64,000 nt of DNA from contig OX421966.1 of assembly GCA_949128115.1 (NCBI GenBank), positions 1,612,001 to 1,676,000 of the forward strand, written 5' to 3'. Under the pieces are notes generated by a model, which saw only the letters and a program-made list of their open reading frames with translations, made no database searches and had not been told where the DNA came from. Of this stretch, positions 19,706 to 59,913 are shown piece by piece. The first letter of the stretch is position 1. Each line of letters opens with the position of its first letter. This DNA comes from Anaspis maculata (lineage: Eukaryota; Arthropoda; Insecta; Coleoptera; Scraptiidae). The position numbers and the translations under genes were made by a program.

Positions 19706-21480
19706 GTATAAATCTCAAGTAATCACTAGAAATTCCATACAAGTCTTCATGTATTCCGAGAAATTCATAAAAGATTTTGGGAGTCCTCAGAGATATTCAG
19801 AAAACCCTACAAAATCAAGTGAAACTCTTCGCAAATCCCTGGAAGTCCCGTGGAAATCTAAAAATTCATAAGAACTCCCATGAATCATGAGAATATTCCA
19901 GAAAATCCATATGAACCTTTGAAAATGTTGTGGAAATCTATATAAGTCTCAATAGTTCTCAAGGAAATTTCTGGAAATCGCTTGAATTCTCATACAAATT
20001 ATTAGAAAGCCATAGTAACTTTCGCAATTCCTCAGAAATCTCGAAGAAATTTGTGGAAGGAAATCTGAAATCTCCTAAAAATTTTGTGGAAACTTCCTAA
20101 AAATTCTATGGATATTTTCAAGAGTCCTGTAGAGAACTTTTTAACTTTCTGGGAGTTTCCAGAAGTCTCTAGGGATTATAAGAAATTCCTACCAATTCTG
20201 TAAAAATCTTCAAGAATCCTTCAAATTCCCATGAAACTCTTCAGAAATGCCTAAAGATTCATACGAATCTCTAGGAACCCCTCAAAGATCCTGTATGAGT
20301 CGTAAGAACATAATAATTCTCAAAAATCTTCAAAGCCGTGGAAATTTCATACTGATCTCCAGTCTCAGCCCGTGAAAAATCCTGGGACGACAGAGATCAC
20401 GTACACATACATGTTCAATCCTATAACTCCCTAGAAATTCTCAAAACTCTTGAGAATCTCCCAAATTCCCGTATCATTTTTCATGAATCCCTAAAAAACT
20501 CAAACAAATCCTTAGGCCTGATGATTCCGTAGAAATCTCAAGACATCTCTTGAATTCTCACAGGAAACATAAAAAATCTCGCTAGTATATCCAGAAGACC
20601 CGTGGAAATCTTCAGAAATCTCTCGCAACTCTACAAAATCTCTGAAAATCTCCAGAAACCCCTAGCAATCTTACACAAATTTTTATAAATTCTTAGAGAT
20701 CCTTTAGACATCTCTAACCTTCCAGAAATCCCCAAAAACCGTGGAAATATTGAAAAATCCTCAAGAATCATCAGTGATCATTTGAAGTCTCCAAAAATAT
20801 CTTGAGTTGTCATAGAAATTCCTATAAATCCTGAATAAATTTTCAGAAATCCCCAAAAATCTCGTAGTTATCCTGAGAAATCTCTAGAAATCTTCAGAAA
20901 TTCGCAAAAGTCTCTTGGAAGTTAACGAAAGAATCTTGTGAGTTTTCCAGGAGTCTCTAGAAATCTTGCGGGAATCTCCCAAGATCGATATAAATATTCA
21001 GTTTTCTTGTCGAGGTCTTGAGAAATTTTCAGGAATCTTCAGTCGCAAAAAAATTCGAATAATAATTCCATGAATATTTTGAAGAACCATTGTCCTGATT
21101 GTCAACGTTGTATTAACTGATTCCGTTATGATTTTGTTCTGTCTGTGGATCCTGGATTCATTCAAATTGGTAAACCGATTTTTCGATGAAGCGACGTCAC
21201 TATAAAGCTAACTAGACAATAATTGAGTAAATTAACCAATCTGAGTAAATCTAGAACCAGAACCCACAGACAGAACGAGATCATAACGGAACCAGTGATT
21301 ACAATGTTGACAATCAGAACAATGGTTCTTCAAGATATTTATCAAATTAATCTTATTCTAATTTTTTTGCGACTGAAGATTTCTAGAAATTTCTCATGAT
21401 TTGGACGAGATTACTGAAAATTTATATTGATCTTGGGAGATTTCCACAAGATTTCTAGAGACTTCTGGAAAATTCACAAA
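19706..21480. repeat. Palindromic tandem unit 3 (right arm truncated)
   Basis: Third unit. It is complete on its left arm and core, but the inverted right arm stops about 100 bp after the core at 'CTGGAAAATTCACAAA', where non-satellite DNA begins. Confidence 0.75.
21037..21378. repeat. Core palindrome 3
   Basis: Third copy of the inverted core, 3861 bp after core 2 by the CAGTCGCA landmark. Its right half shares the GATATTTATCAAATTAATC variant with core 2, so cores 2 and 3 are closer relatives of each other than of core 1. Confidence 0.85.
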
Positions 21481-21499
21481 ATTCTTTGTGATTGCAGAG

Positions 21500-35360: not shown

Positions 35361-36766
35361 CAGAAAGTTATTCCAACAATTTTTTGTACAATTTTCGCTT
35401 TTGTTTCATAGTAAAAATATGAATTTGCACCAAACCCAATTTGAAGTAATGAGTTTGAACTGAATCCCGCTACAAAGTTGATCATTTCAGCGGAATTCAA
35501 ACGATTGAAGTGTTGTTTCAGTACGATTCTCACTTTGAAGTCGGTGGTTAACACAATTCTTGCTATGACATTGACGAATTCATCAAAATGCTCGCTAAAA
35601 TGTTGATAACTCGGTTGATGACTTTTGTGGAATTCTCACGTAGTTGACGAATTCAGCAACATTCTCCGTGATTGAAGAATTTGCAAAAGTCTCAACGCAC
35701 AAATAAAGAATTTGACACCATTCTAACAATAAAGTCCAGAAATTAGACGAACTTCCGTCAAAAAAATTATAAATTTGGCAAAACTGTTACAAGAAAGTTG
35801 ATAAATTCAGCACAATTGTCGCTGTGCAGTGATGAATATGTGAGAAAACTCTCTCAAAAATTGTATATTTTGGCGAAATTCGAGCTATATGAGTGATATA
35901 TTCAGTGCGATTTTCACTTTTAAGTTGGTGAACAAACACCATTCTTGCCATAAATTGATGAATTCAGGGAAATGCTTATTTCTAGCTTGATTGCCTTTGT
36001 GAAACTCTCAAGTGCTTGTCGAATTCAACACAACTTCCACTATACTATTGATGAATTCAGCACAATTTTAGCGACTGAAGTGATAAATCTGGAAAAAATT
36101 CGTTCAAATAGTTCAATAATTTGGCGAAAAGTACTGATAATGCAAAGTTGATCCATCCGTCAGCACAACTGTCGTTATAGAGTGATGAATTTGTACAGAA
36201 TTCTGACACAAAGTTGATCATTTTGGCGGAATTCAACTATCAAAGTGATGTATTCAGTGCGATTCTCACTTTGAAGTTGGTGAATCTAACACAATTCTTG
36301 CTATGGAATTGATGGATTTAGCGGAATGCTCACCTCGAACTTGTGACCTTTGTGAAAGTCTTGAGTTATTGATGAATTCAGCGTGATCTTCACTGGCGAT
36401 CAATTTAGCATAAATATAACGACAAAAGTGACGCATCCAGGGAAAAAATCCTCAATAGTTAAATAAATTGGCCATAATGTGCCTACAAAGTTGATGAATT
36501 CAGCACAGTTTTAGTCATAGAGTGATGCATTTGGACAAAATCTTGCTTCAAAATTGATTGATTTGGCGGAATTTGAACCATGAAAGTGATGTATTTGGTG
36601 CGATTCTCACTTAGAAGTTATAAAATGATGAAGTCAGCGAAATGCTCACTATGAGGCTGATGGCCTTTATAGAATTCTCACGTGATTGACGAATTGAATA
36701 AGCTTCTCACTACATAGTTGATAAGTTTTCGCACAATTCAAGCGACAAAGCTGATGAATTGGATTT

Positions 36767-37088
36767 ACTAGGTGACAAAAAAACTCATTTTTGGAAAGAA
36801 TGAAGGTTGAAAAAGTGAGATGAAATGTCAATTCGCATTGAGTATTTCACCGGAAAAAAACGTTAATTCTCCCATAACCAGCATACAAATATTTGTTTCG
36901 AGCTTGTTAGCTCTCGTCAGTGACAGATATATGTTGGAATTAAGCCCTAAATGACCAGAAAAAATCGAAATCGAAAGGTAAATATCAAAAAAAAAAATTT
37001 CAGTTTGTTACCGGAACCCCGTTCAGGATAACCTGGATCAGTCAGTAAGTGTTTTATTTTTTTATTTTTCCTCTTTCTCCTTTTGATT
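36767..37088 (-). mobile_element. Short retrozyme-like copy with one hammerhead ribozyme
   Basis: Shares with the array at 51323-52946 the words ACTAGGTGACA, GTCAATTCGCATTGAGTATT and GTTACCGGAACCCCG. It begins at the ACTAGGTGAC boundary. After the CCGGAACCCCGTTCAGGAT stretch it switches to an inverted piece ending CTTTCTCCTTTTGATT. It is therefore a single truncated unit with an inverted tail, inserted in the 32-bp array. The target duplication is ambiguous (GATT, or a GATGAATT-like word). Confidence 0.75.
36874..36931 (-). ncRNA. Hammerhead ribozyme, type I, isolated copy
   Basis: On the minus strand it reads CTGACGA, stem II GAGCT/AGCTC with loop AACA, then GAAA, a short stem III CAAA/TTTG with a 2-nt loop, and cleavage triplet GTA. 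The predicted cut lies between 36884 and 36883. Stem I pairs TGCTGGTTAT with ATATCTGTCA, using two G-U pairs and internal mismatches. All conserved core bases are present. Confidence 0.85.
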
Positions 37089-39310
37089 AAAAAAGTGGAT
37101 GAATTTCAAGGAATTCCCATACAAACCTGATAGATTTGGCTAAACTCATTTGATTACATGATAGAATGTACATTCATAAAAATGAAAAGTTGATAAATTC
37201 ACCACGATTTTTACTATACAGTAATGAATTTGAAGGAAGTGCTATTACAAAGCTTATGACTCAAGAGAAGTTTTCGATATAAAACTCTTAGTCTTGGCAT
37301 AATTTCAGATAAGTTTTAATAAATTTGAGGACATTCTCACTACAGAGTTTATAGATTGGCGGAATTGTTACTATACGGAATTTATGAATTTAGCACCATA
37401 TCTCCTGTGATGTTGATCAGATAAAAAAAAACTACGCAACACAATTGATGATTCATGCGTAATTTTTACTTTGAAAGCTTTAATTCAGCACAATTTTAGC
37501 TATGAAATCAGTTACCTTGGCAAAGTTTTAGCTACAAAGCCGATGAATTTGAAAAGAGTCTTGCTAGGAAGTTTCACTGCAAAATTGATTGATTAAGCAT
37601 ATTTTTTGCTATGAAGTTGATGAATTCGAAGGAAGTTGCGTTACAAAGTTGATAGCTTTAGCAAAACACTCATCAGACAGAATTATCCAGAGACATTTCC
37701 ATTATAAAATTGTTGACTAAGAAAAATTCTCACTGCAAAGTTAGTGAATTCAGCAGATTCCCCACTACAAAGTCGAGTTGTGAAGCTCTTACTATACAAT
37801 TGGGGAATTCAGCACACTTTTGGCTGGAAAGTTGATGAATTCAGAGAAATTCTCACTGCACAATTGGATAATTAGCCGAAACTCCCACCAGAAAGATGAT
37901 GAATTCAGCTCACTGGTTGCCATTGAGTGATGAATTTTAGAAGTCTCCCTATAAAGTTGATGACTTGAGAGAAATTCTCACCAATCACTTACTGAATTTA
38001 ACAAAATCCTACTTTCAAAATTGATGGATGTGAAGAGATATCAACTGCAAAATTGACTGATTTGGCTTAGCTGTAGTGCAGAGTTGATGAGTGCAGCGTC
38101 ATTTTCAAAATTCATGAATTTAGAGAGAACGGCCCTACCAAGCTATTGTCCTCAATAAAACTTGCATCAAGAAGTTCAGCAGAAGCCGTGCCATGAGGCT
38201 GAGGTTGAAGATTCTCGCTATGATGTTATTGAAATTAAATAACATAGCCTTAAGGCTCATGAGTTCAGGGTAATCTTCGCTCCGAAGTTTATGAAAAAGT
38301 TTCCTTTGAGATGCTCAATAGAACACAATTTCTGCTTTTAAGTGATGGATCGAGTGATGGATGTGGACAAAATCTCGCCACAAAGTTGATCATTCTGACG
38401 AATAGCGAACTCAAGAAACGATGTATCCAGCGCGATTTTAATTTTGAAGTTGGTAGATCTGACGCAATGCTTGCTATAAAATTGATGAATCCAGCAAAAT
38501 GCACCATTCAATGTTGACGAGTTTTGTGTGATTCTCACATGTTTGACGAATCCTGCAAAATACGCAGTTGATGAGTTTCGCACAATGCTGAAGATATAAG
38601 TGATGAATTCGAACACATTTTCATTCAAAAGTTGATTGATTTGCCAAAACTGTTGAACTGAAACATGCTTACTATGAAGTTGATGATCTTTCAGAAATCC
38701 TCTGTGGTTGGTTGACAAATTTGGCGGAATGCGCACTAGACAGTTAATAAATTCAGCTAAATTCTAACGATGGAATCGATTGACTAAGAGAAATTGTCAT
38801 TGAGAAGTTTATTAGTTTGGCGAAACTGTTACCAAAAAATTGATGAATTCAGCAAAATTCTCGATATGGAGTGATGAATTTGGCCCAAATCTAGCTACGG
38901 AATTGTTCATTTTGGCGGAATTCAAAATGTGGAAATAATATATCCAGTGTGATTTTCACTCCGAAGTTGGTGAATCTAACACAATTTTGGCTTCAAAATC
39001 AAAGAATTCAGCGAGATGCGAACTGTGAGGCTGCTGTCCTTTGTGAAATTATCACGTGGTTGACGGATTCAGCGGAATTTTCACTACACAGATCAATCCA
39101 GCACAATTCTGAAGATAAAGGTTATGAATTTTGAGGAATTTATATCAAAAAGTAGAACAATTTCGCCAAATTACTTGGAAGTTGATAATTCAAGCACGAT
39201 TATCTCTATGAAGTGATGAATTTGTGAAAACTTTGCTTCAAAATTGATCATGCATTTTGATGGATTCCAAAATATGGAAGTAATGTGTTCAGTGCGATTC
39301 CCATGATGAA

Positions 39311-40290
39311 TTATAACCTAAACCTCGCACTTTCAACTCACAACTTTAAACTCTGAATTTCGAACTTCAAGATTCAAACTTCAAGCTTTAATCCACAAAC
39401 TGAGAACTTCAATCAACTTTGAACTTGAAATTTAGAATTTTGAGCTCCAAATTAGAAAGTCCCAAACTTTCAGCATCATATCATTGTATCGAACTTCAAA
39501 TTGCCTCCAGAAAACTTGTAAGTCTGGATTTTCTTGGAACTCTACTTGAAGTTTTGAATTTTTAATTCAAAATTTAATTCTTTTGAACTTCCAATATGAA
39601 GATTCGAATTTCGGATTTCAAACAATAAATTGATTGCTTGGAACTCTCCAGCTTTAAACCTTTGTCATTCACTTTCAAGCTTTGAGCTTCCAACGTGAAA
39701 CTCTGGATTCAAAACTTGAATAGTGAAACTTTAAGCTTCGAAATTTTAATTTTGAAATTTGAACTTTAGACTTTGAACTTTGAATTTCAAATTTGAGGCT
39801 TTTAAACCCTGAGCTTTGAACTTTCAACTTCAAACTCCAACCTCTACTTCAAACTCCAACGACACTTCAACTTCTAAATCTAAACCTGCCTTTTTGAACT
39901 CCAAGTTTCAACCGTTCAACCTCAAACTGCAAAATTTCCAAACTTGGAGCTTTCAACTGAAAAATTTCAACAATGATCTTATTACTTGAAATTTGGAGCT
40001 CTAAACTTTGCAATCAAAATTTTGAATTTGAACTCCAAACTTGAAACGTGAGCTTCAAACTTTGAATGTTCAAACTTCCAAATTCCAGCACCAGACTTCA
40101 AATTTCGAGCTTCGAATTTCGGAACTCTGATTTTAAAACTGTGCAATTCAGACTTCAAACTGCCAACTGAGAACAGCAGTATTCGAACTTTGACTCGAGT
40201 AATTTGAAATTTGAACTCTGAAATCTAAACTCGTCTGAACTCATAACATCCATTTCCCACTCCCAACTTTCAACTACAAGCGCGTAAGTG
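39311..40290. repeat. Second CTTCAAACTTT-type array stretch
   Basis: Same style as 1-8580 (for example GAACTTTGAATTTCAAATTT), sitting within the 32-bp arrays. From 39584 onward it is part of the segment duplicated at 50143-51032. The last part before the Gypsy element, about 40290-40472, returns to GTTGATGAATTTG-type monomers. Confidence 0.75.
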
Positions 40291-40473
40291 AACGTGTCCG
40301 TATGTAGTTGATGAATTTGACAAAATCTCACAACGCATTATATGATGAATCGAACGCAATCCTAACTAGGTAACTGATGAACTAAAGGAGAAATCTTGAT
40401 AGAAAATTGATGAATTTGGGGGGAATATATCATTACTAAGTTTACAAATTTTGCACAAATGGAGTCACATAGT
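39584..40473 (+). repeat. 890-bp segment duplicated on both sides of the Gypsy element (left copy)
   Basis: Identical, as far as I compared, to 50143-51032 with a constant offset of 10559 bp, so there are no indels. It ends in GGAGTCACATAG directly at the 5' LTR. An integrase-made target duplication is only 4-6 bp, so this repeat needs another cause. Confidence 0.9.
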
Positions 40474-42246
40474 GTTACGGCTGAAATTTCATTTGGGGTT
40501 TGTTTACTTCTGGGTGACCTTTGGTGTTCTCAGCGATTAAACTTTGCGTTCAAACAGCTGATCGAACAATACCTGGGAGCGATGACCACGCATCTTATTC
40601 GTCTTCGACGCTGGCCCTTTAGGCGGAACGAAGAGAACCGTATGCGGCAAGAAATAGGTGCGAGTGTGCTATCATGCCTTCTCCTACAATAGTCGGTAGG
40701 TACCAACTTCCGCACCTCTTCGTTTGAGCGGCGATGGACTTCCCCTCTCGTAATTACCACGTGTAATTGGAAGATATCGGTAATCCAGAGTCATCCAGGG
40801 TTGATCGGGGTTTTTCATCCCCCTGAAACGGTTGGTCGTATCGTTTTCTCTCGTTTACTGTGTGTTGCCTCGTATATTTTTGTTGTTTAGTCCGTCCATT
40901 TTTGGATATTTCAGAAGGTGGGCATTGTCTTTGATTTGAAATGGACGTTGGAGAGGGGAATTTGATAAGAGAAACATTATTATTTCTGTCGAGTAATCGA
41001 GTGGTGTGTGCTGGAGATTTTGGAAAAGCGCTAATCGCGGATTTAATCAGCCACCACTTTCCGATTAAAAGATCATCGCAGACTCGATCGCAGATTTATT
41101 TATTATTCTTTGAGGCCACACAACAACCGTCGGCCTCCATTTCTTCATCCGTCCAGTTATCCATTTCGGATGCTTTGAATGTTTTTCTTTGTCCGTCCCA
41201 ACATCTTCTTCATCGGATAAATTGGGGTGCTTCTTCACTGGTGTGGATTCCTCAGCTGCTCCGTAAATCCATCAATAGCTGCATCTGTGACTTCACCGCC
41301 ACTTTTTGTGCTTTCATCAAACCTCGTGTTGTCTGGAGAGAAGTGCCCAGTCTTGTGTTTCTGGTACAGCCACACCCAGTGTCTGTCTGTCCAGTCTGGA
41401 AGAACCCTCGATGGGAACCCGAGGCGAAAGTTAGGTGATAGAATAAGTTGTCGGTTGATGTCCAGATTATGGAAATTGCCAAACTACAGCACGTCGCAAA
41501 CTTATAATTGTGAATTGTGAAACTTATTATTATTGTGAATTTCATAGCCTTCAGCTCTAAAAGCCTTCAGCCTTCTCAATTTTCATTATTATTTTTCTTC
41601 AGTAATTCAAATACCAAATTCTTTATCATTCATTATCTCCATTTGTTAGTTTTTTTTTTTTTCTTTATTTTGTCAAATAAGCTTATGTCCAGGAAAAGCA
41701 ACGCACACAAGTTCTCAGGCAGAGTAGTGATTCACTACCTGTGGATTTTTGTGGAGATTGCGTGTGCCTGGTTAGATCGTGCGGGACAGGACCGGGTTTG
41801 GGGTGAATAGGGCCCATTGTTAGCGACCCCCCATTTCTCTGTGCACGGATAGTTGGGTAGGTAGCTAGGCTAGAATACCATCCTTTTCCTTGCTGCGTTC
41901 TGGCCGCTCGCGTTGATCCATCAGATCCCTCTCTTTTGTTTCTTATTTGTTTTGCTTGATTGTTTCTTTTCTTTTGGACGCCCGCTTAACAGTATGGCTA
42001 TTTTTCCTTGAACTTAACTAACTTTCATATTTCTCAATCTATCTAATTGTTACTTTCTCACTATTTAAAACTTGTTATTTCTATTTCATTTAATTGGCTT
42101 CAAATATACTTCAGTACCTCTCAACTATTTTTATTTTTTTTTTATTTTTTTTTTTTCGTTCTATTCTGGATCCATGATATGCCAGCAACCGGACCTCACG
42201 AACCCCTAAAGAATCTCAACCGGGTTACGCAATTCGGGGCGTAACA
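40473..42246 (+). repeat. 5' LTR
   Basis: Begins TGTTACG and ends CGTAACA, a 7-bp perfect inverted terminus of the TG...CA type. It matches 48376-50143, with one visible length difference in a T run (13 against 11, at about 41650-41662). A 165-codon frame (40941-41438) exists in both LTRs but resembles no known protein and is probably chance. No AATAAA was found, and a TATATTTTT word near 40874 is only a weak TATA candidate. Confidence 0.95.
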
Positions 42247-43217
42247 TTTGGCGCCCAACGGTTTTTTTGAGTTTGCAACGTAAATAAGTTAGTAGGTACC
42301 TACTATTTGGCATCCAACGCGATTTTTGTTTGTGTTGTTTTTGAGAAGGCTGGAAAAAGAAATTCACCATTGGCATCTGACATCTAGCACTTTACTGAAA
42401 ATACTTTGTAATTATTTTGGCCGATGTTGGTAAAGGATAATGTTAGACTTTCGAACTGGAGAAATTTCTTTGGGTGAACGTTAACCATAGCGGTTAATTT
42501 TTTTTTTTTGCAGCAGCAGCAGCGCTTTTGTAATATTTTTTCTGGTCTAGGGTGACGAAAAATAATCCGGCCTGGAGAATTTTCGTGGTTGTAGTATACA
42601 GAGTGTACGCTAGAGCGCGCATTACCTGTTTCGATACTACCTACGCTGTATATAGAGGGTTTATTAGGTATTAGTTATTACTTTAGGATTAGTATTAAGA
42701 TTTATTGGGTTTCCGCTGGCAGTGCTAGGTTGGAGACGTCCTCCCTAGTAGTGGTGCTTCGCGTGATTGGTTTTAATTTTTCTTGCGAAAAATTGTGCAG
42801 GTACGGGGGGAGTTCGGTTTCGGACAAACCTCAAGTTTTCCTGGAATTTTCCGGAGAGTGGACCGTGCAGTCTCATTTGAAGAAGGACTATTCCTTCTTA
42901 TCAAGTTTTTTTCGATAAATCTTGAAACCTTTTGGGTTTATTTATTGGGTTATTTTACGCACAACGAAGCGTAGTGAATACCCACAATTGTGTTGTTTAA
43001 CAATAATAAACAAATTTGTGGTTTTTATATACAGGGTGTATACCTAACCTACAGAGTGTGCATATATAGTTCCTATATAAATACAGGGTATATCAACGTT
43101 TTTTTGGCGGTCTTTCACTTGGTTTTATTGCTTGTAGTAAACAAAGTGTAATACCAACGCATTTATTCGGACACTTGGTCGTTTTTTATTTAAGAACTAT
43201 ACAGGGTGACCTCAAAT
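42247..43217 (+). other. Untranslated leader of the Gypsy element
   Basis: No long frame. It contains repeated TATACAGGGTG/ACAGAGTGT words near 42596, 43031, 43050, 43082 and 43198, two PBS-like echoes, and a short run of CAG triplets near 42512. The gag ATG follows directly after the last ACAGGGTGACC word. Confidence 0.7.
42249..42260 (+). other. Primer binding site, tRNA-Lys type
   Basis: TGGCGCCCAACG starts 2 nt after the LTR and is complementary to the 3' end, with CCA, of insect tRNA-Lys(CTT). The match stops after 12 nt. A decayed echo, TTGGCATCCAACGCG, lies about 60 bp downstream. Confidence 0.85.
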
Positions 43218-45164
43218 ATGGTGGAACAATTGAAGCCAAACCGTTTGTTGAAGGATGAACTTGCTCATGAACTCCAGATTCGTGGTGTGGCGTCTTCTGG
43301 ATTGGTCGAGGAAGACAGGGCTCTTCTTCGTGAAGCATATCGCTCAGGCCTGGAGGTTAGACGATTGAGACTGGATCCAGAAGAAGAGTTCGAGATCATT
43401 CGGCAGAAGTTGAATGAGCTCGCCCTACGAATTCGCAATTTCAACTTCGAAAATAGAGATAATGAACATGAAAGCATTTCCACTCGCCTGAGACATTTGA
43501 CAGGTCGACTGGATCGTCTCTGGTCGGACTCTGAGATGATGGAAAGACTTCATGTGGAACTCAAGTCGAAATGTATTCGATTGAACGCACTGTTGTTGGC
43601 CGTGTTTGAAGGCGAAGCTTCTGGTGGGGGCGATGACGGTCCAGAGGTGGAGGAAGAACAGAATCGGTCTCGAGATGCTCTCATACAAACGGCAGAAACC
43701 GTGGTGGGAATGCTATCGCGTATCAACATTGACTCATCGAGCGTAGACGAGGAGGGACCCCCGGTGACGGAGAATCAGGCAAGTCTCTATTCCCTTTTGG
43801 ATAAAATATCCATAGCGGTCAATTCGACTGCACCAACTTTGCTACCATTCGTAACCTCTAGCACAACTTCAGGACTATCAAGTTCACAGCCCCAGCAAAT
43901 CATTTCTACTGGCACATGCGCAACGTTTTCGGGAGGAGGGCCGATTTCATCGGTTACAGTTGGTACTTCAGGTGTTCAGAACATGGCACAACAGGGTATT
44001 CTGTTTCCACCAACCACTAACGCTGCACCATACCAACCTTATTACGGTCCTTATCGTCAACAACCGCAACACCAGCAACCACAACGATACTATCATCAAC
44101 AACAACAACCACAACAATATCATCGACAACCACAATACCAGCAACAACAGCAATGCAATCTTCAACCACTACTAACACAACAACAACCACCACTACCATT
44201 CGCTCAGCAACCTGCGTATTTCGGATTCCCGAGCGGACTGACCTCTACTCAGCCGTTCCAGGCGTCTCACCACATGGGACAGGGATCCATTGCGAAGTGG
44301 AACGTGAAGTACAGCGGATGTACGAGTCTGGCTTCATTTATCCAGCGAGTCGAAGAGTTAGCGGTAGCGAGAGGAGTATCGCAGGACCAACTTTTCGTCG
44401 CGGCAGTGGACCTACTCGAGGGAGATGCCCTAAATTTTTGGCGAGCGAACCGAGTTCACTATCGGAGTTGGACGGATCTGGTGCGGGGACTTCGAGGTGC
44501 TTTCGAGCCGATGGACTATGCGAAGCGACTTTGGAGCGAGATAGAACGGCGCACGCAGCATCCCTCGGAGGGAATAGTGGCATATGTTTCGGCCATGGAA
44601 AATTTATTTTCGAGACTTGCGGTGACTCCACCGGAAGAGGTTCGTCTGAGCGTGATCCGAGCAAATCTTCTGCCCTATTTACAATTTGAGCTGACCCGAA
44701 CGCCGTGTCACACGGTCGCCGATTTAATGTACGTAGGAAGGATGTTCGAGGAGACTAGGATAATGGCCGCTCGTTATCAACCTCCCACAACCGACACCTC
44801 TTCTATGCTGGAGCCAGACCTGTCGTGTCCAAATCTTGCACCTTCGAAACAGCGCACTCGGCCACCATTATCGGTGTTCACAGGATTCCCCGAAGGAAAA
44901 ATGGCCCGAACAAGTGTGGTGGAAGCTGCTGATCAGAAGCAGGCAGAAAGAAACGAAAGTCGCAGCCGGCCTAGGGGACTTTGCTGGATTTGTGGCGGGA
45001 CAGGCCACTACGCGTCGACGTGCCCGGATGGCCAGGCGAATTTCTGCTCCAGGTGTGGAAAGGAAGGCGTTTCCCTGAAGACATGTCCACGCTGTCGCAC
45101 CAACCCTGGAAATCGAGGTCGTGGTGGATCGAATGCGGGAAACGGAAGGATGAATCAGGAGTAG
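43218..45164 (+). CDS. gag: Gag polyprotein of the Gypsy element (648 aa)
   Basis: Structural protein that forms the virus-like particle and packages element RNA. I place the start at ATG 43218, which has A at -3 and G at +4. The frame is open from 43206, but the codon there is GTG. From the N-terminus: a charged helical region with a KDELAHELQIRG stretch; a Ser/Thr/Gly-rich linker; a Gln-rich tract at about 281-314; a Retrotrans_gag-like capsid region at about 360-520 with the FWRANR and LRGAF words; and a basic C-terminus. Zinc knuckle 1 is a full CX2CX4HX4C at 589-602. Knuckle 2 at 610-623 keeps the three Cys but has Val for His, followed by PRC. The frame is intact and ends in a stop that lies past the slippery site. 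Confidence 0.92.
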   Translation: MVEQLKPNRLLKDELAHELQIRGVASSGLVEEDRALLREAYRSGLEVRRLRLDPEEEFEIIRQKLNELALRIRNFNFENRDNEHESISTRLRHLTGRLDRLWSDSEMMERLHVELKSKCIRLNALLLAVFEGEASGGGDDGPEVEEEQNRSRDALIQTAETVVGMLSRINIDSSSVDEEGPPVTENQASLYSLLDKISIAVNSTAPTLLPFVTSSTTSGLSSSQPQQIISTGTCATFSGGGPISSVTVGTSGVQNMAQQGILFPPTTNAAPYQPYYGPYRQQPQHQQPQRYYHQQQQPQQYHRQPQYQQQQQCNLQPLLTQQQPPLPFAQQPAYFGFPSGLTSTQPFQASHHMGQGSIAKWNVKYSGCTSLASFIQRVEELAVARGVSQDQLFVAAVDLLEGDALNFWRANRVHYRSWTDLVRGLRGAFEPMDYAKRLWSEIERRTQHPSEGIVAYVSAMENLFSRLAVTPPEEVRLSVIRANLLPYLQFELTRTPCHTVADLMYVGRMFEETRIMAARYQPPTTDTSSMLEPDLSCPNLAPSKQRTRPPLSVFTGFPEGKMARTSVVEAADQKQAERNESRSRPRGLCWICGGTGHYASTCPDGQANFCSRCGKEGVSLKTCPRCRTNPGNRGRGGSNAGNGRMNQE

Positions 45165-45199
45165 GTCGACACCTCGATTCAAACCCTTCTCAGTCGACC
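45137..45199 (+). promoter_or_regulatory. Programmed -1 ribosomal frameshift site between gag and pol
   Basis: GGGAAAC at 45137-45143 lies in the gag frame exactly as G GGA AAC, a classical X XXY YYZ slippery heptamer. Slipping back one base continues into the pol frame, with the next codon at 45143, and avoids the gag TAG at 45162-45164. Downstream, GGTCGAC (45164-45170) can pair with GTCGACC (45193-45199) as a 7-bp stem with a 22-nt loop. The 20-nt spacer is longer than usual, so the stimulatory structure may be different or a pseudoknot. Confidence 0.75.
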
Positions 45200-48100
45200 A
45201 AAATTCTAGGATGGCGCCAGCTGGCGCGTACGAAAGGAGACAACCGGCCACACCTTAAGGTGGAGATTCTGGGAAGGGAGATAGTTGCCTTGCTGGACAC
45301 TGGAGCATCGCGCACATGTATCGGAGAAGAAGGAATACGACTTTTTGAGGACATGGGGTACCATATTGGTGGAACGCGCTTCGAAAGCTGTCGCGTAGCT
45401 AACGGCAGCAGACTGGAGACTATCGGTGCCTTCTCCGTCCCCATCCGGTTGGGAAAGGTGGAAAAGCTTTTCGAAGTTCTAGCAATACCATCACTGACGA
45501 ATACAATGATCCTCGGCGCCGACTTCTTCAGACGTATGCGACTCACCTTGGACCTGTCCCGTGGATGTCTGACTTTTTCTTCTGCCCAACTTGATGTCTC
45601 CAGTGTAACTGTTCGATCGGATTTGACCGCTTATCAACACCAGCGTTTGGAATCGTTGTTGAATGAGGCTCTCAGCCACTCCGACTCCGGTTTGGGGAAA
45701 ACCAACCTGGTTGAGCACCGTATCAAACTAAAACCGGGCACAGAGCCCATTAAACAACGATATTATCCCTTGTCACCAGTGCTACAGCAACATGTCAACG
45801 CCGAGCTTGAGAAGATGTTGGAGATGGGAGTGGTGGAGCCTTCGACGTCCCCTTGGGCCTCCCCAATTGTGATGGTCAAGAAGGGACCCGACCAATATCG
45901 CTTTTGTGTGGACTTCCGCAAGGTGAATCAAGTTACCGAAAAGGACGCTTATCCACTACCTTTTATTTCGAACATCTTGGATAGGCTTGGCCAGGCACGC
46001 TTTTTGTCATCTCTGGATATAAAGAGCGCTTATTGGCAGATTCCCATGGAGCAGAATTCAAAAGCCCTGACGGCGTTTACGGTTCCAATGCGTGGGCTCT
46101 TCCAATTCACACGCATGCCATTCGGGTTGCATAACGCCCCTGCGACGTGGCAGAGATTGGTCGACCGTGTCCTGGGTCCAACTTTGGAACCGTACGTTTT
46201 TGTTTATCTGGACGATATAATCGTCGCTACTCCTGACTTCGATGGGCATCTGGAGGTTCTGGCTGAGGTTTTTCGTCGGCTGCGTCACGCGGGATTGGTT
46301 GTCGGTCGTGACAAATGTAACTTTTGTCGGCCGGAACTTCGGTATCTGGGTTACGTGGTGGATGGTCATGGATTACGGGTCGACCCAGAAAAGATTCAGG
46401 CCATTTTGGAAGTGCCAGCACCGACCAAGGTCAAGGAGGTTCGTCGCGTCCTTGGAATGGCGGGCTGGTACCGCCGCTTTGTGCCGAATTTTTCTACACT
46501 GGTAGCCCCCATGAACGGACTGTTGCGGAAGGGTGTTAAGTTTGAGTGGACACCGGCTTGCAAACTCTCCTTCATGGCCTTGAAGCAGCATCTTGTGACG
46601 GCTCCAGTGGTCAGGTGTCCGGACTTCTCACAACCCTTCTCGGTTCAAACTGATGCGAGCGACTACGGACTCGGCGCAGTTCTCACGCAGACGTTTGATG
46701 GCACTGAGTGTGTGATCAGCTACATTAGTCGTTCGCTGACAAGCAGCGAGCGCAAGTTCAGTGCGACCGAGAAGGAGTGCTTAGCGGTTTTGTGGGCAAT
46801 TGAGAAGTTCCGGGCATACGTGGAGGGCAGCAGGTTTGTCGTCATCACGGACCACTTCGCCTTGCAGTGGCTTCACAACTTGCGTGATCCAAATGGGAGA
46901 CTGGCCCGCTGGAGTGTGAGGCTCCAGCAATATGTTTTTTCTGTTGTCCACCGTCGGGGGAAGGATAATGTGGTTCCAGACTTCCTCAGCCGATCCGTCC
47001 CTAAGACTGAGGCGCAGGCCAGTGGCCATGTCGACGCATTGGACTTCACCGCTGTTCGGGATCCGTGGTATCGGCGGATGCGGAATCAAGTTCGTGAGCA
47101 TCCCCTATTGTACCCAGTTTGGAGGCTGGATGGAGAACAGCTAATGAAGAACTGCCGAGACATGTCTACGGGTTTTGGTGCTACTCGATCTTGGAGATTG
47201 GTCGTTCCACAGGATCACCGACAGGAAGTATTGTCTTCTGCTCACGACTCACCGACATCTGGTCATGGAGGCATAACGAAAACATTCTTTCGACTGGCTG
47301 AGACTTACTATTGGCCAAAGATGCGGCATGATGTGGCGAAATTTGTCAAGAAGTGCGAAATCTGCCATGCTCAAAAGCCGGAACAGAGACCTCCGAGAGG
47401 ACTGATGAGTGGTAGAGCAAATGTCACTCGTCCATGGGAACTGATCTACATCGATCTTGTTGGACCATTGCCAAAATCAAAATCGGGGAACATCTACATT
47501 TTCTCGATACTGGATCATTTCAGTAAATTCTCGATTTTTCTGCCTCTTCGAACGGCCTCAGCCAAAAATGTTTGTCGTCTTTTGGAGGACAATGTTTTTC
47601 TATTGTTTGGCGCCCCTAAGACCATGGTTTGTGACAATGGCAGACAGTTTGTCAGCCAAGAACTCGAAACCTTGGCCAGACAATATGGTGTCAAAATCTC
47701 TCATACCGCCGTACATCACCCGGAGGCAAATGCTGTTGAGAGATATCATCGTACTCTCAAGGTGATTCTTGCATCATATGTGAAAGACAATCATCGTAGT
47801 TGGGAAGAACATCTACAAAAAGCGGCTTGCGCAATGAGATCTTCACGGAATGAGACGATTGGACTTACTCCCTACTACGTCAATTTTGGCCGTCGGATGT
47901 GCCTCAATGGTGAAGACTTCGATCCATCGGAAGATGTACAGAACGACGACGCCCTGAGACCAAGAGAAGCGGTGTTTCGCCAGATTTTCGATCAGGTGCA
48001 CGCAAGACTCAACAAGGCTTGTCGACAGTCTAGGGAACGTTACAACCTACGGAGGAGACCAGAGTCATTTTCAGTTGGAGACCGGGTCTGGCATAGGCAT

Positions 48101-48277
48101 TTTGCACAGTCTGACGCAGCTCGCTACTACTCGGCCAAACTTGCTCCAAAATTCGTCGGTCCATTTGTGATCTCAGCGACAATTTCTCCTTGGACATACG
48201 AGCTTTCCACTGAGGATGGACGCCGAATTGGAGTTTACCATGCTAGTGACCTTAAAAGAGCTCTACCGAACACTTGA
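45143..48277 (+). CDS. pol: Pol polyprotein: protease, reverse transcriptase, RNase H, integrase
   Basis: Expressed as a Gag-Pol fusion through the -1 shift. The frame is open upstream to about 44981, but no independent ATG start is needed. Protease: DTGA at 45296-45307. Reverse transcriptase: YLDD at 46205-46216, preceded by the FCVDFRKVN and MPFGLHNAP words. RNase H: TDAS at 46649, with the TEKE and TDH acidic residues following. Integrase: an HHCC zinc domain (His codons 47243 and 47264, Cys codons 47354 and 47363), catalytic Asp at 47453 and 47633, and Glu at 47738, with 34 residues between the last two (one fewer than the usual 35). A C-terminal KFVGPF block resembles the GPY/F module. 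There are no stops or frameshifts, so it is potentially functional. The protein makes and integrates element cDNA. It ends 98 bp before the 3' LTR. Confidence 0.95.
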   Translation, partial: RKDESGVGRHLDSNPSQSTKILGWRQLARTKGDNRPHLKVEILGREIVALLDTGASRTCIGEEGIRLFEDMGYHIGGTRFESCRVANGSRLETIGAFSVPIRLGKVEKLFEVLAIPSLTNTMILGADFFRRMRLTLDLSRGCLTFSSAQLDVSSVTVRSDLTAYQHQRLESLLNEALSHSDSGLGKTNLVEHRIKLKPGTEPIKQRYYPLSPVLQQHVNAELEKMLEMGVVEPSTSPWASPIVMVKKGPDQYRFCVDFRKVNQVTEKDAYPLPFISNILDRLGQARFLSSLDIKSAYWQIPMEQNSKALTAFTVPMRGLFQFTRMPFGLHNAPATWQRLVDRVLGPTLEPYVFVYLDDIIVATPDFDGHLEVLAEVFRRLRHAGLVVGRDKCNFCRPELRYLGYVVDGHGLRVDPEKIQAILEVPAPTKVKEVRRVLGMAGWYRRFVPNFSTLVAPMNGLLRKGVKFEWTPACKLSFMALKQHLVTAPVVRCPDFSQPFSVQTDASDYGLGAVLTQTFDGTECVISYISRSLTSSERKFSATEKECLAVLWAIEKFRAYVEGSRFVVITDHFALQWLHNLRDPNGRLARWSVRLQQYVFSVVHRRGKDNVVPDFLSRSVPKTEAQASGHVDALDFTAVRDPWYRRMRNQVREHPLLYPVWRLDGEQLMKNCRDMSTGFGATRSWRLVVPQDHRQEVLSSAHDSPTSGHGGITKTFFRLAETYYWPKMRHDVAKFVKKCEICHAQKPEQRPPRGLMSGRANVTRPWELIYIDLVGPLPKSKSGNIYIFSILDHFSKFSIFLPLRTASAKNVCRLLEDNVFLLFGAPKTMVCDNGRQFVSQELETLARQYGVKISHTAVHHPEANAVERYHRTLKVILASYVKDNHRSWEEHLQKAACAMRSSRNETIGLTPYYVNFGRRMCLNGEDFDPSEDVQNDDALRPREAVFRQIFDQVHARLNKACRQSRERYNLRRRPESFSVGDRVWHRHFAQSDAARYYSAKLAPKFVGPFVISATISPWTYELSTEDGRRIGVYHASDLKRALPNT

Positions 48278-48358
48278 GGTAGCTCCTGTTCCTATTGTTT
48301 TTTTGTATGTGTCTGTCAAGTTTGTTGGAAGATTTTCCTTCCTAGGAAAGATCTTCGT

Positions 48359-48375
48359 GGAGGTAAACGGGGGAA
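48359..48375 (+). other. Polypurine tract
   Basis: GGAGGTAAACGGGGGAA directly abuts the TGTTACG start of the 3' LTR. It would prime plus-strand DNA synthesis. It has two pyrimidine interruptions, which is tolerated in this superfamily. Confidence 0.75.
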
Positions 48376-50143
48376 TGTTACGGCTGAAATTTCATTTGGG
48401 GTTTGTTTACTTCTGGGTGACCTTTGGTGTTCTCAGCGATTAAACTTTGCGTTCAAACAGCTGATCGAACAATACCTGGGAGCGATGACCACGCATCTTA
48501 TTCGTCTTCGACGCTGGCCCTTTAGGCGGAACGAAGAGAACCGTATGCGGCAAGAAATAGGTGCGAGTGTGCTATCATGCCTTCTCCTACAATAGTCGGT
48601 AGGTACCAACTTCCGCACCTCTTCGTTTGAGCGGCGATGGACTTCCCCTCTCGTAATTACCACGTGTAATTGGAAGATATCGGTAATCCAGAGTCATCCA
48701 GGGTTGATCGGGGTTTTTCATCCCCCTGAAACGGTTGGTCGTATCGTTTTCTCTCGTTTACTGTGTGTTGCCTCGTATATTTTTGTTGTTTAGTCCGTCC
48801 ATTTTTGGATATTTCAGAAGGTGGGCATTGTCTTTGATTTGAAATGGACGTTGGAGAGGGGAATTTGATAAGAGAAACATTATTATTTCTGTCGAGTAAT
48901 CGAGTGGTGTGTGCTGGAGATTTTGGAAAAGCGCTAATCGCGGATTTAATCAGCCACCACTTTCCGATTAAAAGATCATCGCAGACTCGATCGCAGATTT
49001 ATTTATTATTCTTTGAGGCCACACAACAACCGTCGGCCTCCATTTCTTCATCCGTCCAGTTATCCATTTCGGATGCTTTGAATGTTTTTCTTTGTCCGTC
49101 CCAACATCTTCTTCATCGGATAAATTGGGGTGCTTCTTCACTGGTGTGGATTCCTCAGCTGCTCCGTAAATCCATCAATAGCTGCATCTGTGACTTCACC
49201 GCCACTTTTTGTGCTTTCATCAAACCTCGTGTTGTCTGGAGAGAAGTGCCCAGTCTTGTGTTTCTGGTACAGCCACACCCAGTGTCTGTCTGTCCAGTCT
49301 GGAAGAACCCTCGATGGGAACCCGAGGCGAAAGTTAGGTGATAGAATAAGTTGTCGGTTGATGTCCAGATTATGGAAATTGCCAAACTACAGCACGTCGC
49401 AAACTTATAATTGTGAATTGTGAAACTTATTATTATTGTGAATTTCATAGCCTTCAGCTCTAAAAGCCTTCAGCCTTCTCAATTTTCATTATTATTTTTC
49501 TTCAGTAATTCAAATACCAAATTCTTTATCATTCATTATCTCCATTTGTTAGTTTTTTTTTTTCTTTATTTTGTCAAATAAGCTTATGTCCAGGAAAAGC
49601 AACGCACACAAGTTCTCAGGCAGAGTAGTGATTCACTACCTGTGGATTTTTGTGGAGATTGCGTGTGCCTGGTTAGATCGTGCGGGACAGGACCGGGTTT
49701 GGGGTGAATAGGGCCCATTGTTAGCGACCCCCCATTTCTCTGTGCACGGATAGTTGGGTAGGTAGCTAGGCTAGAATACCATCCTTTTCCTTGCTGCGTT
49801 CTGGCCGCTCGCGTTGATCCATCAGATCCCTCTCTTTTGTTTCTTATTTGTTTTGCTTGATTGTTTCTTTTCTTTTGGACGCCCGCTTAACAGTATGGCT
49901 ATTTTTCCTTGAACTTAACTAACTTTCATATTTCTCAATCTATCTAATTGTTACTTTCTCACTATTTAAAACTTGTTATTTCTATTTCATTTAATTGGCT
50001 TCAAATATACTTCAGTACCTCTCAACTATTTTTATTTTTTTTTTATTTTTTTTTTTTCGTTCTATTCTGGATCCATGATATGCCAGCAACCGGACCTCAC
50101 GAACCCCTAAAGAATCTCAACCGGGTTACGCAATTCGGGGCGT
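48376..50143 (+). repeat. 3' LTR, lacking its last four bases
   Basis: Matches the 5' LTR at an offset of 7903 bp except for a T run two bases shorter. It stops at GGGGCGT and passes straight into GAACTTCCAATATGAAG, the start of the duplicated flank. The expected AACA and the following target duplication are absent. The junction shares only one T with the left flank. Confidence 0.93.
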
Positions 50144-51032
50144 GAACTTCCAATATGAAGATTCGAATTTCGGATTTCAAACAATAAATTGATTGCTTGG
50201 AACTCTCCAGCTTTAAACCTTTGTCATTCACTTTCAAGCTTTGAGCTTCCAACGTGAAACTCTGGATTCAAAACTTGAATAGTGAAACTTTAAGCTTCGA
50301 AATTTTAATTTTGAAATTTGAACTTTAGACTTTGAACTTTGAATTTCAAATTTGAGGCTTTTAAACCCTGAGCTTTGAACTTTCAACTTCAAACTCCAAC
50401 CTCTACTTCAAACTCCAACGACACTTCAACTTCTAAATCTAAACCTGCCTTTTTGAACTCCAAGTTTCAACCGTTCAACCTCAAACTGCAAAATTTCCAA
50501 ACTTGGAGCTTTCAACTGAAAAATTTCAACAATGATCTTATTACTTGAAATTTGGAGCTCTAAACTTTGCAATCAAAATTTTGAATTTGAACTCCAAACT
50601 TGAAACGTGAGCTTCAAACTTTGAATGTTCAAACTTCCAAATTCCAGCACCAGACTTCAAATTTCGAGCTTCGAATTTCGGAACTCTGATTTTAAAACTG
50701 TGCAATTCAGACTTCAAACTGCCAACTGAGAACAGCAGTATTCGAACTTTGACTCGAGTAATTTGAAATTTGAACTCTGAAATCTAAACTCGTCTGAACT
50801 CATAACATCCATTTCCCACTCCCAACTTTCAACTACAAGCGCGTAAGTGAACGTGTCCGTATGTAGTTGATGAATTTGACAAAATCTCACAACGCATTAT
50901 ATGATGAATCGAACGCAATCCTAACTAGGTAACTGATGAACTAAAGGAGAAATCTTGATAGAAAATTGATGAATTTGGGGGGAATATATCATTACTAAGT
51001 TTACAAATTTTGCACAAATGGAGTCACATAGT
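50143..51032 (+). repeat. 890-bp duplicated flank (right copy) containing the empty insertion site
   Basis: Copy of 39584-40473. It runs without interruption through GTCACATAG into TATGGAGTAGTGAATTTG, that is, through the point where the Gypsy element sits in the left copy. It thus shows the pre-insertion sequence. Confidence 0.9.
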
Positions 51033-51322
51033 ATGGAGTAGTGAATTTGAGAGGAATCTCGCTGGGCAGATTATAGCTTGAGTGGAATTCTCACCATAGT
51101 TTTGATAAATTCAGCTCTATTTTCGCTATAAAGTTGATGAATTTGAGGAAATTTTCAACGCAAAGTTGATTGGTTTGACGAAATAATCACTACGAATTAG
51201 GGTATTGAGCAAAATTTCTGCCATGAAATTAATGAATTTAGAGAAACTTGCCCTACAAACTTGATGGTTTAGTTGAAGATGTCATGTTAAGGCTTATGAA
51301 TTCAGCAAAATTCATGCCATAG
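51033..51322. repeat. ~32-bp GTTGATGAATTC array, resumed
   Basis: Same monomer as 35361-39310 (for example AAAGTTGATGAATTTGAGG). It ends at the left target duplication of the retrozyme array. Confidence 0.75.
51309..51322. repeat. 14-bp target-site duplication, left
   Basis: AATTCATGCCATAG, repeated exactly at 52947-52960. The sequence beyond each copy belongs to the 32-bp array, so the duplicate marks the borders of the insertion. Confidence 0.85.
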
Positions 51323-51589
51323 TTATTTGAATCGAAAGGAGGAAAAGGAGAAAAAAATGAAAAAAGCACTGAATCATCCAGGTTTCAGAATCCAAGCCTG
51401 AATGAGCCGCTTTTCTACGGCTGCAAGACAAGGACTCGTCTGGATTTCGTTGACGTTAAAAACGCTAAAATTATTTGAATTCACTAGGTGACAGCAAAAC
51501 TCATTTTTAGAAAGAATAAAGGGGAAAAGGTAGGATGATATGTCAATTCGCATTGAGTATTTCACCAAAAAAAAAACGTTAGTTCCCCC

Positions 51590-51648
51590 ATAACTGGCAT
51601 ACAAACGTTTGTTTCGAGCTTGTTAGCTCTCGTCAGTGACAGATATAT
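51590..51648 (-). ncRNA. Hammerhead ribozyme, type I, array copy 1
   Basis: Minus strand: CTGACGA (51630-51636), stem II GAGCT/AGCTC with loop AACA, GAAA, stem III CAAA/TTTG closed by CG, triplet GTA with the cut between 51600 and 51599. Stem I pairs TGCCAGTTAT with ATATCTGTCA, leaving C-U and U-U mismatches as an internal loop. Every core base required for catalysis is present. The very short stem III suggests it may work best as a dimer in tandem RNA. Confidence 0.92.
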
Positions 51649-52008
51649 GATGGAAATAAGCCCTGAATGACCTAAAAATATTTGAAATCGAAAGGGAAAT
51701 GTCAAAAAAATTTATTTGTTCATTACCGGAACCCCGGTCAGGATGATTATTTGAATCAAAAGGAGAAAAAGGAAAAAAAGCACTTACTGAATGATCCATC
51801 TTTTAGAATCCAGGCCTGAATGAGACGCTTTTCTACGGCTGCAAAGCAAGGACCCGTCTGGATCCCGTTGACGTTAAAAACCCCAAAGTTATTTGAATTT
51901 ACTAGGTGACAACAAAACTCTTTTTTGTAAAGAATGAAGGTAGAAAAGGTGAGATGAAATGTCTATTCGCATTGAATATTTCACCGAAAAAAAACCGTTA
52001 GTTCCCTC

Positions 52009-52067
52009 ATAACTGGCATACAAATGTTTGTTTCGAGCTTGTTAGCTCTCGTCAGTGACAGGTATAT
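52009..52067 (-). ncRNA. Hammerhead ribozyme, type I, array copy 2
   Basis: Same core. Stem III is CAAA/TTTG with loop CA, and the stem I strand carries ATACCTGTCA. Predicted cut between 52019 and 52018. The change in the stem III loop and one in stem I leave the helices intact. Confidence 0.92.
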
Positions 52068-52422
52068 GTTGAAAATAGGCCCTAAAGGACCAAAATAGAA
52101 TCAAAATCGAAGAGGAAATGTCAACAAAATTCTTTTGTTCGTTACCGGAACTCTGGTCAGGATAATTATTTGAATCAAAAGTTAGAAAAAGGAAAAAACA
52201 CTCACTGAATGATCTAGGTTTTAAAATTCAGGCCTTAATGAGCCGTTTTCTACGGCTGCAAGGCAAGAACTTGTCTGGATTCTGTTGACGTTTAAAACGC
52301 CAAAGTTAATTGAATTTACTAGGTGACAACAAAACTCATTTTTGGGGAAAATAAAGGTAAAATGTAAGACGAAATGTCAATTCGCATCGACTATTTCACC
52401 AAAAATAAACCATAATTCCTCC

Positions 52423-52481
52423 ATAACTGGCCTACAAACATTTGTTTCGAGCTTGTTAGCTCTCGTCAGTGACAGATATAT
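52423..52481 (-). ncRNA. Hammerhead ribozyme, type I, array copy 3
   Basis: Core CTGACGA and GAAA with stem II GAGCT/AGCTC. The base after the GTA triplet is G instead of T, which breaks the first stem I pair, so it may be less active. Predicted cut between 52433 and 52432. Confidence 0.9.
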
Positions 52482-52775
52482 GCTGGGAGTTAGCCCTAAA
52501 GGACCAAAAAAAAATTAAAATCGAGAGGGAAATGTCAAAAAAATTCTTTAGTTTGTTACCGGAACCATGGTTAGGATAATTATTTGAATCAAAATAAGAA
52601 AAAGGAAGAAGAAGAAAAGGAAAGAATGAGGCCTGGATTTTTTTTTTGCTTCTTCTCCCTTCGATTCAGATACATATCCTGACCGGAGTTCCGGTAACTA
52701 ACTGGATTATTTTCTTGGAATTTGCCTTTGGACCTAATTTTTTTTTTCTGGTCATTCAGGGCTCATTTCCAACAT

Positions 52776-52834
52776 ATTATCTGTCACTGACGAGAGCTAA
52801 CAAGCCCGAAACAAACGTTTGTATACCAGTTATA
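52776..52834 (+). ncRNA. Hammerhead ribozyme, inverted copy with a damaged stem II
   Basis: Plus strand: CTGACGA, stem II GAGCT/AGCCC (one A-C mismatch), GAAA, stem III CAAA/TTTG, triplet GTA ending at 52823. Stem I also has a changed base (TACCAG instead of TGCCAG). Core bases are intact but the helices are weakened. It lies in the inverted tail of the element. Confidence 0.85.
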
Positions 52835-52946
52835 GGGGAATGATCGTTTTTTTTTTTTTTGGTGAAATAGTCAATGCGAATTGACATCTCATCTTACCTT
52901 CTCTACTTTTATTCTTTCCAAAAATGAGTTTTGTTGTCACCTAGTG

Positions 52947-52960
52947 AATTCATGCCATAG
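52947..52960. repeat. 14-bp target-site duplication, right
   Basis: AATTCATGCCATAG, exact match to 51309-51322. It is followed by TGTTGAGTTGGC of the 32-bp array. Confidence 0.85.
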
Positions 52961-53780
52961 TGTTGAGTTGGCAAGAAAGTTGATGAATTCAGATATTGTC
53001 ACTATTACGCTGATGAACTCAAAGGAATACCCACTACTTTAGGTAGATGAGTTTTGACGGTGACAAGATTCCCACTCCAAATTTGACGAATTCAGCAAGA
53101 TTTCGGAAAAAAATTGATTATTTGTCGGAGTTCTCGGTATAAGGTCAATGAATTTTGCACAATTCCCGCTTCAAGTCAATGAATTCCGATAAATGTTTGT
53201 CAAAAAAATGATTGATTTAGCAAAACTGTTACTGTAAGTGCTCATTTGACGCCGACGACTTTTGTGGAATTTTCACGTGTTTGACGGACTTGGCGAAATT
53301 CTCACCACACAGTTGATAAGATCAATAGAATTTCAATGATGGAATTGATGGATTTTGAGAAATTTCCATCAAAAGATTGATCAATTTGGCAAAACTTTCA
53401 CTAAAAAGGTCATGAATCCAGCAAAATCTTTGATATGGGGTGATGAATTTTGGCAAGATATCGCCACAAAGTTGATCAATTCTAACAATGGAAGTGATGT
53501 GTCCAGTGCGATTCTTACTTGGAAGTCAGCAAACCCAACACAATCCTTGCTATAAAATTGATGAATTCTGCGAAATGCTCACTATGAGGTTGACAACCTT
53601 TGTACAATTTCCACGTAGTTGACGAATGTAGCAACATTCTCACTACAAAGTTGATAAGTCGAGCACATTTGTAACGATAAGGAGTTTTCATCAAACATCG
53701 ATTTTTTTGGGCAAAATTGTTCCTACATAGTTGGTGAACTCATGATCGACGCGACGTGATGAATTCGGTCATTAAGATAT
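52961..53780. repeat. ~32-bp GTTGATGAATTC array, final part
   Basis: Continues the monomer and the GTGATGTGTCCAGTGCGATT marker near 53490, then gives way to unique sequence near 53780. Confidence 0.75.
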
Positions 53781-55464: not shown

Positions 55465-55815
55465 AGTGCTGGCAAAAACCAGCAAAAATGAACACCAGTA
55501 TACCGGTTTTGTCGAATACCGGTTTCGGTAAAACCGGTATTAAAAGCCTAATCCAAAAGCCGGTATTCAAAGCCGGCTCCAAAAATAGGCATTGGACACC
55601 GGCTTTGAGAACCGTTATTGAAAGCCGGCTTGGAAAACCGATACTTGAAACCAATTTCTCCGAAAACCAATTTTGGAAGCCGGCTCCGAATACCGACTCC
55701 GAAAGCCGGCTCGAGAAACCGGTCTCGAAAGCCAGATCTGGAAGCCGGTTTTTGGCTATCATCAGAACCGCGGTTTTCGGAGCCGGCTTTCAAAACCGGT
55801 TTCGTTGCCAACACT
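55465..55815. mobile_element. CCGG-rich MITE-like element, copy 1
   Basis: Ends AGTGCTGGCAA and TTGCCAACACT, an 11-bp terminal inverted repeat with one mismatch. The interior consists of about 22-24 bp words such as GAAAGCCGGCTCCGAAAACC and ACCGGTATT that read similarly on both strands. It is noncoding; overlapping frames on both strands reflect the palindromic repeat. No target duplication was found. Confidence 0.75.
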
Positions 55816-59630: not shown

Positions 59631-59913
59631 AGTGCTGGCAAAAACCGGGAAAAATAAAAATCGGTATTCTGTTCGTTAAAACTGATATTGGAAGCTGACT
59701 CCGAAAACTGGTATTGAAAACTGCTGCGTAGACCAGTATTGAAAGGCGGCTTCGGAGACCGACACTGGAAAACGGTCCGAAATTTTGGAAGCCGGCTCCG
59801 AATACCGACTCCGAAAGCCGGCTGTGTGAGCCGGTTTTCAGTTATCATCGAAACTCGGTTTTCGGAGCCGGTTTCCAAAGCCGGCTTTCAGAATCGATTC
59901 GGTTGCCAGCACT
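59631..59913. mobile_element. CCGG-rich MITE-like element, copy 2
   Basis: Perfect 11-bp terminal inverted repeat AGTGCTGGCAA/TTGCCAGCACT. The interior shares GAAGCCGGCTCCGAATACCG with copy 1 at 55465-55815. Two copies on either side of the 3.8-kb array show it is a dispersed family. No target duplication visible. Confidence 0.8.

Follow-up and report, generated by a model that had tools for sequence, protein, structure and literature searches.

Introduction

Metazoan non-LTR retrozymes are described, in the parts of the account available, as non-coding tandem units of 150-450 bp and low GC that carry a type I hammerhead, lack LTRs and are accompanied by a target duplication of more than 4 bp (Cervera and de la Pena 2020, PMC7229834). 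The same account proposes a circular RNA intermediate for them, with LINEs or Penelope-like elements as candidate helpers (PMC7229834). The hammerheads of Penelope elements are described as minimal, without helix III or loop contacts. Penelope insertions of Adineta, as presented in the relevant portion of PMC3846280, contain inverted pLTRs and are flanked by duplications of 9, 10 and 8 bp, while some copies have none. In the available text on the purified Anolis enzyme PAc, both target strands are cut and extended with a preference for ATT, copying begins within the RNA, at nt 111-118 of the ORF, while the hammerhead cut lies at 26 (a start about 85-92 nt downstream of the cut, by subtraction), mainly uncut RNA is used in vitro, and the start sites are not homologous to the target (PMC11167929). 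Another repeat, the hammerhead-bearing satellite pDo500 of Dolichopoda cave crickets, is better conserved in its ribozyme than elsewhere and, among 198 sequences, shows compensatory changes, according to sections of PMC2837043.

We analysed a 64-kb stretch of DNA (the window) in which an array of hammerheads had been proposed to be a candidate retrozyme. This proposal was supported by a type I hammerhead, non-coding tandem units of about 415 nt, a low GC, a target duplication of more than 4 bp and the presence of a second insertion. The element is probably a non-autonomous and non-coding retrozyme of the metazoan non-LTR kind, predicted to cleave itself and integrated head to head in the style of Penelope-like elements. 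Judged by its sequence, it is a new family within the known metazoan non-LTR retrozymes. Plant LTR retrozymes, which have a type III hammerhead and a 4-bp duplication, were rejected as its identity, as stem I is open here and the duplication is 8-14 bp.

Results and Discussion

The array forms one of two arms in a head-to-head insertion

The original prediction placed three direct units of about 415 nt on the minus strand of positions 51323-52946. The units were borne out by Tandem Repeats Finder, which gave a period of 419, 3.0 copies and 85% matches for positions 51367-52607, and by the predicted minus-strand cut points after 52433, 52019 and 51600, which define units of 414 and 419 nt. These lengths lie within the 150-450 bp of metazoan non-LTR retrozymes, and the GC of the units (35.5 and 37.0%) is likewise below 50%. 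Each repeat is an entire unit, a separate internal region is missing, and no ORF of at least 130 aa is present within 51323-52946. The first reading overlooked that the three units (T1 to T3) form only one arm of a larger structure: the inverted arm, at 51323-52629 (1307 bp, sense on the minus strand), is joined head to head with a sense arm at 52630-52946 (317 bp, plus strand), which consists of one partial unit (INV). The two arms overlap within the unit.

The bounds given at the outset are exactly the span between two identical 14-bp repeats (AATTCATGCCATAG), located at 51309-51322 and 52947-52960. The first six bases of the right copy also fit the sequence of the element, so the true duplication measures 8-14 bp, again more than the 4 bp of the described retrozymes. 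When the flanks were compared position by position, three of the 429,936 pairs reached 14 identical bases, the observed one included, and 223 reached eight. Read from its sequence, the array locus is a single insertion with two head-to-head arms and a target duplication. INV differs from T1, T2 and T3 by 14-18%, which makes a simple fold-back produced during assembly unlikely.

A second insertion with the same plan

The occurrence of the repeat at this locus only had been named as a result that would speak against a retrozyme. A second insertion (C5) was found 14 kb from the array, at 36761-37092 on the minus strand, which brings the number of insertions within the 64-kb window to two. Its sense arm runs from 37030 down to 36761 on the minus strand (270 nt) and its inverted arm occupies 37031-37092 (62 nt), so that it has the plan of the array in the opposite orientation. 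The flanks at 36748-36760 and 37093-37105 agree at 11 of 13 bases. This candidate duplication is suggestive only, since 184 of the 355,810 pairs of 13-mers in the flanks match equally closely and the comparison covered 56 offsets.

The two arms of C5 are neighbouring pieces of the unit. Neighbouring arms are the classical outcome of twin priming, and target duplications of 8-14 bp fit LINEs. A LINE-type helper could thus have made the inverted arms by target-primed reverse transcription and twin priming, with no Penelope-like enzyme. Twin priming explains C5 well, because of its neighbouring arms, and explains the array less well, because the arms of the array overlap in the unit instead of abutting. 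The same internal 3' end is found in both insertions, with no poly(A) or simple-repeat tail after it in either, which also argues against a LINE. We consider this explanation possible, though doubtful.

Hammerhead motifs in the five copies

The original prediction described a complete type I hammerhead in each of the three units, made of CTGACGA, stem II GAGCT/AGCTC, GAAA, a short stem III and the triplet GTA on the minus strand. All of these parts were recovered in T1, T2 and T3: stem II has five base pairs and an AACA loop, and stem III has four pairs and a 4-nt loop, four pairs being formed in all five copies. Stem I is an open helix, which makes the hammerhead type I; T1 and T2 form five of the six inner pairs, with a constant U.C mismatch, and also have an outer extension. 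Completeness held for T1 (51594-51642, minus strand) and T2 (52013-52061, minus), which have predicted cuts between 51600 and 51599, exactly the site that had been claimed, and after 52019, respectively. It did not hold for T3 (52427-52475, minus, cut position after 52433), whose stem I has an A.G mismatch at its base. INV (52781-52829, plus, cut position after 52823) has mismatches in stems I and II, and C5 (36878-36926, minus, predicted cut after 36884) has the strict motif. The type I hammerhead of the described retrozymes is thus complete in T1, T2 and C5.

The strict scan (a CTGANGA...GAAA...UH core with at least five of six pairs in stem I, at least four in stem II and at least three in stem III) gave three matches in the whole window, which were T1, T2 and C5 (36920, minus), and failed on T3 and INV. 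None of 200 dinucleotide-shuffled windows contained a strict match, and a chance origin of the motif was rejected on this basis. A model made from the five copies found no sixth copy in the window, the next best match having an E of 0.7.

The suggested comparison with Rfam gave a divided answer: no match was obtained at the gathering score, and Hammerhead_HH9 (RF02275) was the best-matching model, end to end, for all five copies below it. The relaxed search of positions 51000-53200 gave 21 matches, four of them to Hammerhead_HH9. Its scores were 25.7 bits (E 0.0015) for T1, 25.6 bits (E 0.0016) for T2 and 18.4 bits (E 0.33) for T3 on the minus strand, 19.2 bits (E 0.19) for INV on the plus strand, and 20.6 bits (E 0.017) for the dispersed copy C5. 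The gathering score is 52, and none of the five copies reaches half of it; at 18-26 bits, they are not members of RF02275 by the rule of Rfam. The top row of the relaxed table was a sub-threshold microRNA family located on the axis of the inverted repeat; the microRNA and snoRNA matches around 52542-52711 lie on this axis, far under their cut-offs, and we attribute them to the hairpin.

Minimum-energy folds of the five segments of 81-84 nt did not by themselves show a complete three-helix hammerhead. The circular folds of two monomers were no more stable than those of 60 shuffles each (z of -1.25 and +0.82), and an unusually stable circular form was accordingly discarded. Exact-pattern searches gave no match in viral contigs and none in bacterial and archaeal genomes, where an animal element is not expected.

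The ribozyme core is spared in diverged copies

Alignment of the five copies over 273 common columns showed that the core was variable at one of 34 columns while the rest was variable at 92 of 239 (P 4.9e-6). The difference persisted when gapped columns were excluded (1/34 versus 79/226, P 2.5e-5) and when T1, T2 and T3 were taken alone (0/34 versus 60/239, P 1.1e-4), and the wider hammerhead of 49 columns was variable at seven of them, versus 86 of 224 outside (P 6.6e-4). The core columns were defined after the alignment had been seen; as a control, one in 5000 column shuffles (a fraction of 0.0002) had a 34-column window as low. The core has the lowest variability of any 34-column stretch, and non-overlapping windows of equal length have at least six variable columns. 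Selective constraint on the ribozyme core is thus well supported.

In the helices of the hammerhead, 94.5% of cells pair, versus 25-46% when the partners are slid. No covariation was found in these pairs among the five copies, which contain no double changes, only one-sided changes or broken pairs; the helices are therefore supported by pairing and not by covariation. CpG retention was dropped as a sign of constraint on the core, the cells being too few to use (10 of 10 in the core versus 24 of 33 elsewhere). The lack of covariation and of an Rfam match at the gathering score would suit an unrelated repeat in which a hammerhead-like motif arose by chance, a reading made highly improbable by the 200 shuffles without a strict motif and by a core with a single variable column, when any non-overlapping 34-column window has at least six.

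Pairwise identity among the five copies was 82-86%. They form a star, with 7, 10, 13, 12 and 7 private changes in T1, T2, T3, INV and C5, respectively, and the internal branches of their tree make up 5.3% of its length, with supports of 39 and 43. The units of the array are no closer to one another than to the distant C5. This relationship, the exact target duplication at the array and the separate insertion of C5 with the same 3' end all speak against a hammerhead satellite DNA whose spread and inversion were due to DNA-level recombination. Such an origin, which we find quite improbable, has a precedent in the satellites of cave crickets, where the ribozyme region is also more conserved than the rest, according to the portion of the report available (PMC2837043). 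The likeness to pDo500, compared by description only, is that of an insect repeat, the present host being probably an insect too, with a hammerhead better conserved than the remainder of its unit; however, the available account of pDo500 is of a satellite DNA with compensatory changes, whereas the present element has no covariation.

A common 3' end and a candidate stem-loop

Comparison of the array and C5 showed that both targets begin with AATTCAT. When this motif is counted as the start of the duplication, each of the two sense arms stops 123 nt past its cut position. In the array, the shared bases permit an end up to 129 nt past the cut. Near each of the two copy starts, ATTCAAATAA is present; this motif is AT-rich and was given no weight.

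Between the cut and the copy start, a stretch of 33 nt downstream of each hammerhead may form a stem-loop capped by GCGA, at 51534-51566 in T1, 51953-51985 in T2, 52368-52400 in T3 and 36819-36851 in C5 (all minus) and at 52861-52893 in INV (plus). Its proposed pairs are formed in 95.4% of cells, versus 28-51% when slid; no double changes and no covariation occur among the five copies. The folds were below the mean of the shuffles (z of -1.5 to -3.3), and 17, 4, 4, 0 and 1 per 200 shuffles folded as well in the five copies. The proposed structure is the minimum-energy fold in C5 only, and T2 favours another hairpin. The stretch was picked after the alignment had been seen, and we retain it as a candidate binding site, no more.

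Comparison with Penelope-like elements

As in Penelope-like elements, head-to-head inverted copies are present in both insertions, with a short target duplication at the array and a suggestive one at C5. From the available text on PAc (PMC11167929), two further likenesses can be drawn: an internal start that lies a short way past the hammerhead, by about 85-92 nt in PAc and 123 nt here, and a target that contains ATT. However, up to 6 nt are common to the RNA and the target at the start here, whereas the starts described for PAc in that text are not homologous. The element also differs from Penelope-like elements in its stem III of four pairs and in having no RT or GIY-YIG coding region; with no ORF of at least 130 aa, its coding content is not that of a Penelope element. 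The array does match the layout of Penelope pLTRs, with direct and inverted copies and duplications of 8-10 bp, and could be the remnant of a Penelope-like element whose tandem and inverted pLTRs kept the hammerhead after loss of the coding part. This is improbable, given the missing ORF and the four-pair stem III in all five copies when Penelope hammerheads are minimal.

The present insertions depart from the described metazoan non-LTR retrozymes in the head-to-head layout of the array, with its inverted arm, and in the divergence of 14-18% between its units. No head-to-head retrozyme insertion was found in the parts available of the open-licence literature (PMC7229834, PMC11167929, PMC3846280, PMC7761336, PMC8490949 and PMC2837043), and within the same portions we found no earlier description of a Penelope-like integration footprint of a retrozyme.

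Template, priming and helper

For the entry of metazoan retrozymes into the genome, the window offers two insertions within 64 kb that have readable footprints, namely paired arms, target duplications and a common start. These footprints point to priming from both target strands. The arm of three units needs a multimer or a circle, which excludes a cut monomer as its template. Repeated copying of one circle would have made T1, T2 and T3 identical to begin with, and subsequent neutral decay would not be expected to spare the ribozyme, yet the ribozyme was spared. The simplest reading is that the template was the transcript of a genomic array that had already diverged, the uneven conservation in the array pointing to a multimer that was already heterogeneous; selection on the array locus after insertion may be an alternative cause of the sparing.

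In the cycle that we propose, the tandem units would be transcribed and the hammerhead would trim part of the RNA, its self-cleavage being one of the steps that we infer. The uncut multimeric RNA, or circles, would then be used by a trans-acting reverse transcriptase, whose most likely source is a Penelope-like element. This enzyme would open an AT-rich target on both strands with a stagger of 8-14 bp. One target strand would prime cDNA synthesis within the RNA, about 123 nt past the hammerhead cut, the other would prime it at another internal position, and both cDNAs would be joined head to head. We lean slightly towards a Penelope-like helper, and a LINE-type helper with twin priming is clearly the less likely of the two. 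No helper gene was seen in the window, where Pfam was run on 10 ORFs, all outside 51323-52946.

More speculatively, Penelope-type enzymes might copy retrozymes in general as uncut multimeric RNA from a fixed start about 123 nt past the hammerhead. The priming of both target strands would then give rise to head-to-head insertions at birth, the hammerhead and the stem-loop would act as a loading signal that imitates the RNA of the helper, and circles would not be the integrating template.

Other repeats of the window

A Gypsy-type LTR retrotransposon occupies positions 40473-50147, with LTRs at 40473-42245 and 48376-50147 that are 99.83% identical. It has a gag frame (Pfam gag just below the cut-off), which contains CAA/CAG-type, glutamine-rich tandem repeats at 44052-44183, and a pol frame of 1100 aa. 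Among the 120 relatives listed for this pol, five have an organism name, and all five are insects; the host is therefore probably an insect, although a mobile element is a weak guide to it. The 890 bp to the left of its 5' LTR (39584-40473) and to the right of its 3' LTR (50143-51032) are 100% identical, and the right copy ends 290 bp left of the array. This length is far beyond that of a target duplication, and an artefact of assembly or haplotypes and a real duplication are both compatible with it.

A tandem segmental duplication extends over 12355-21487, in which 12355-17626 matches 16185-21487 at 96%. Minisatellite-like repeats of 26 bp, with units AAAGCCGGCT/AAACCGG, are located at 55530-55749 and 59684-59836, and a 43-bp copy occurs in identical form at 55669 and 59781.
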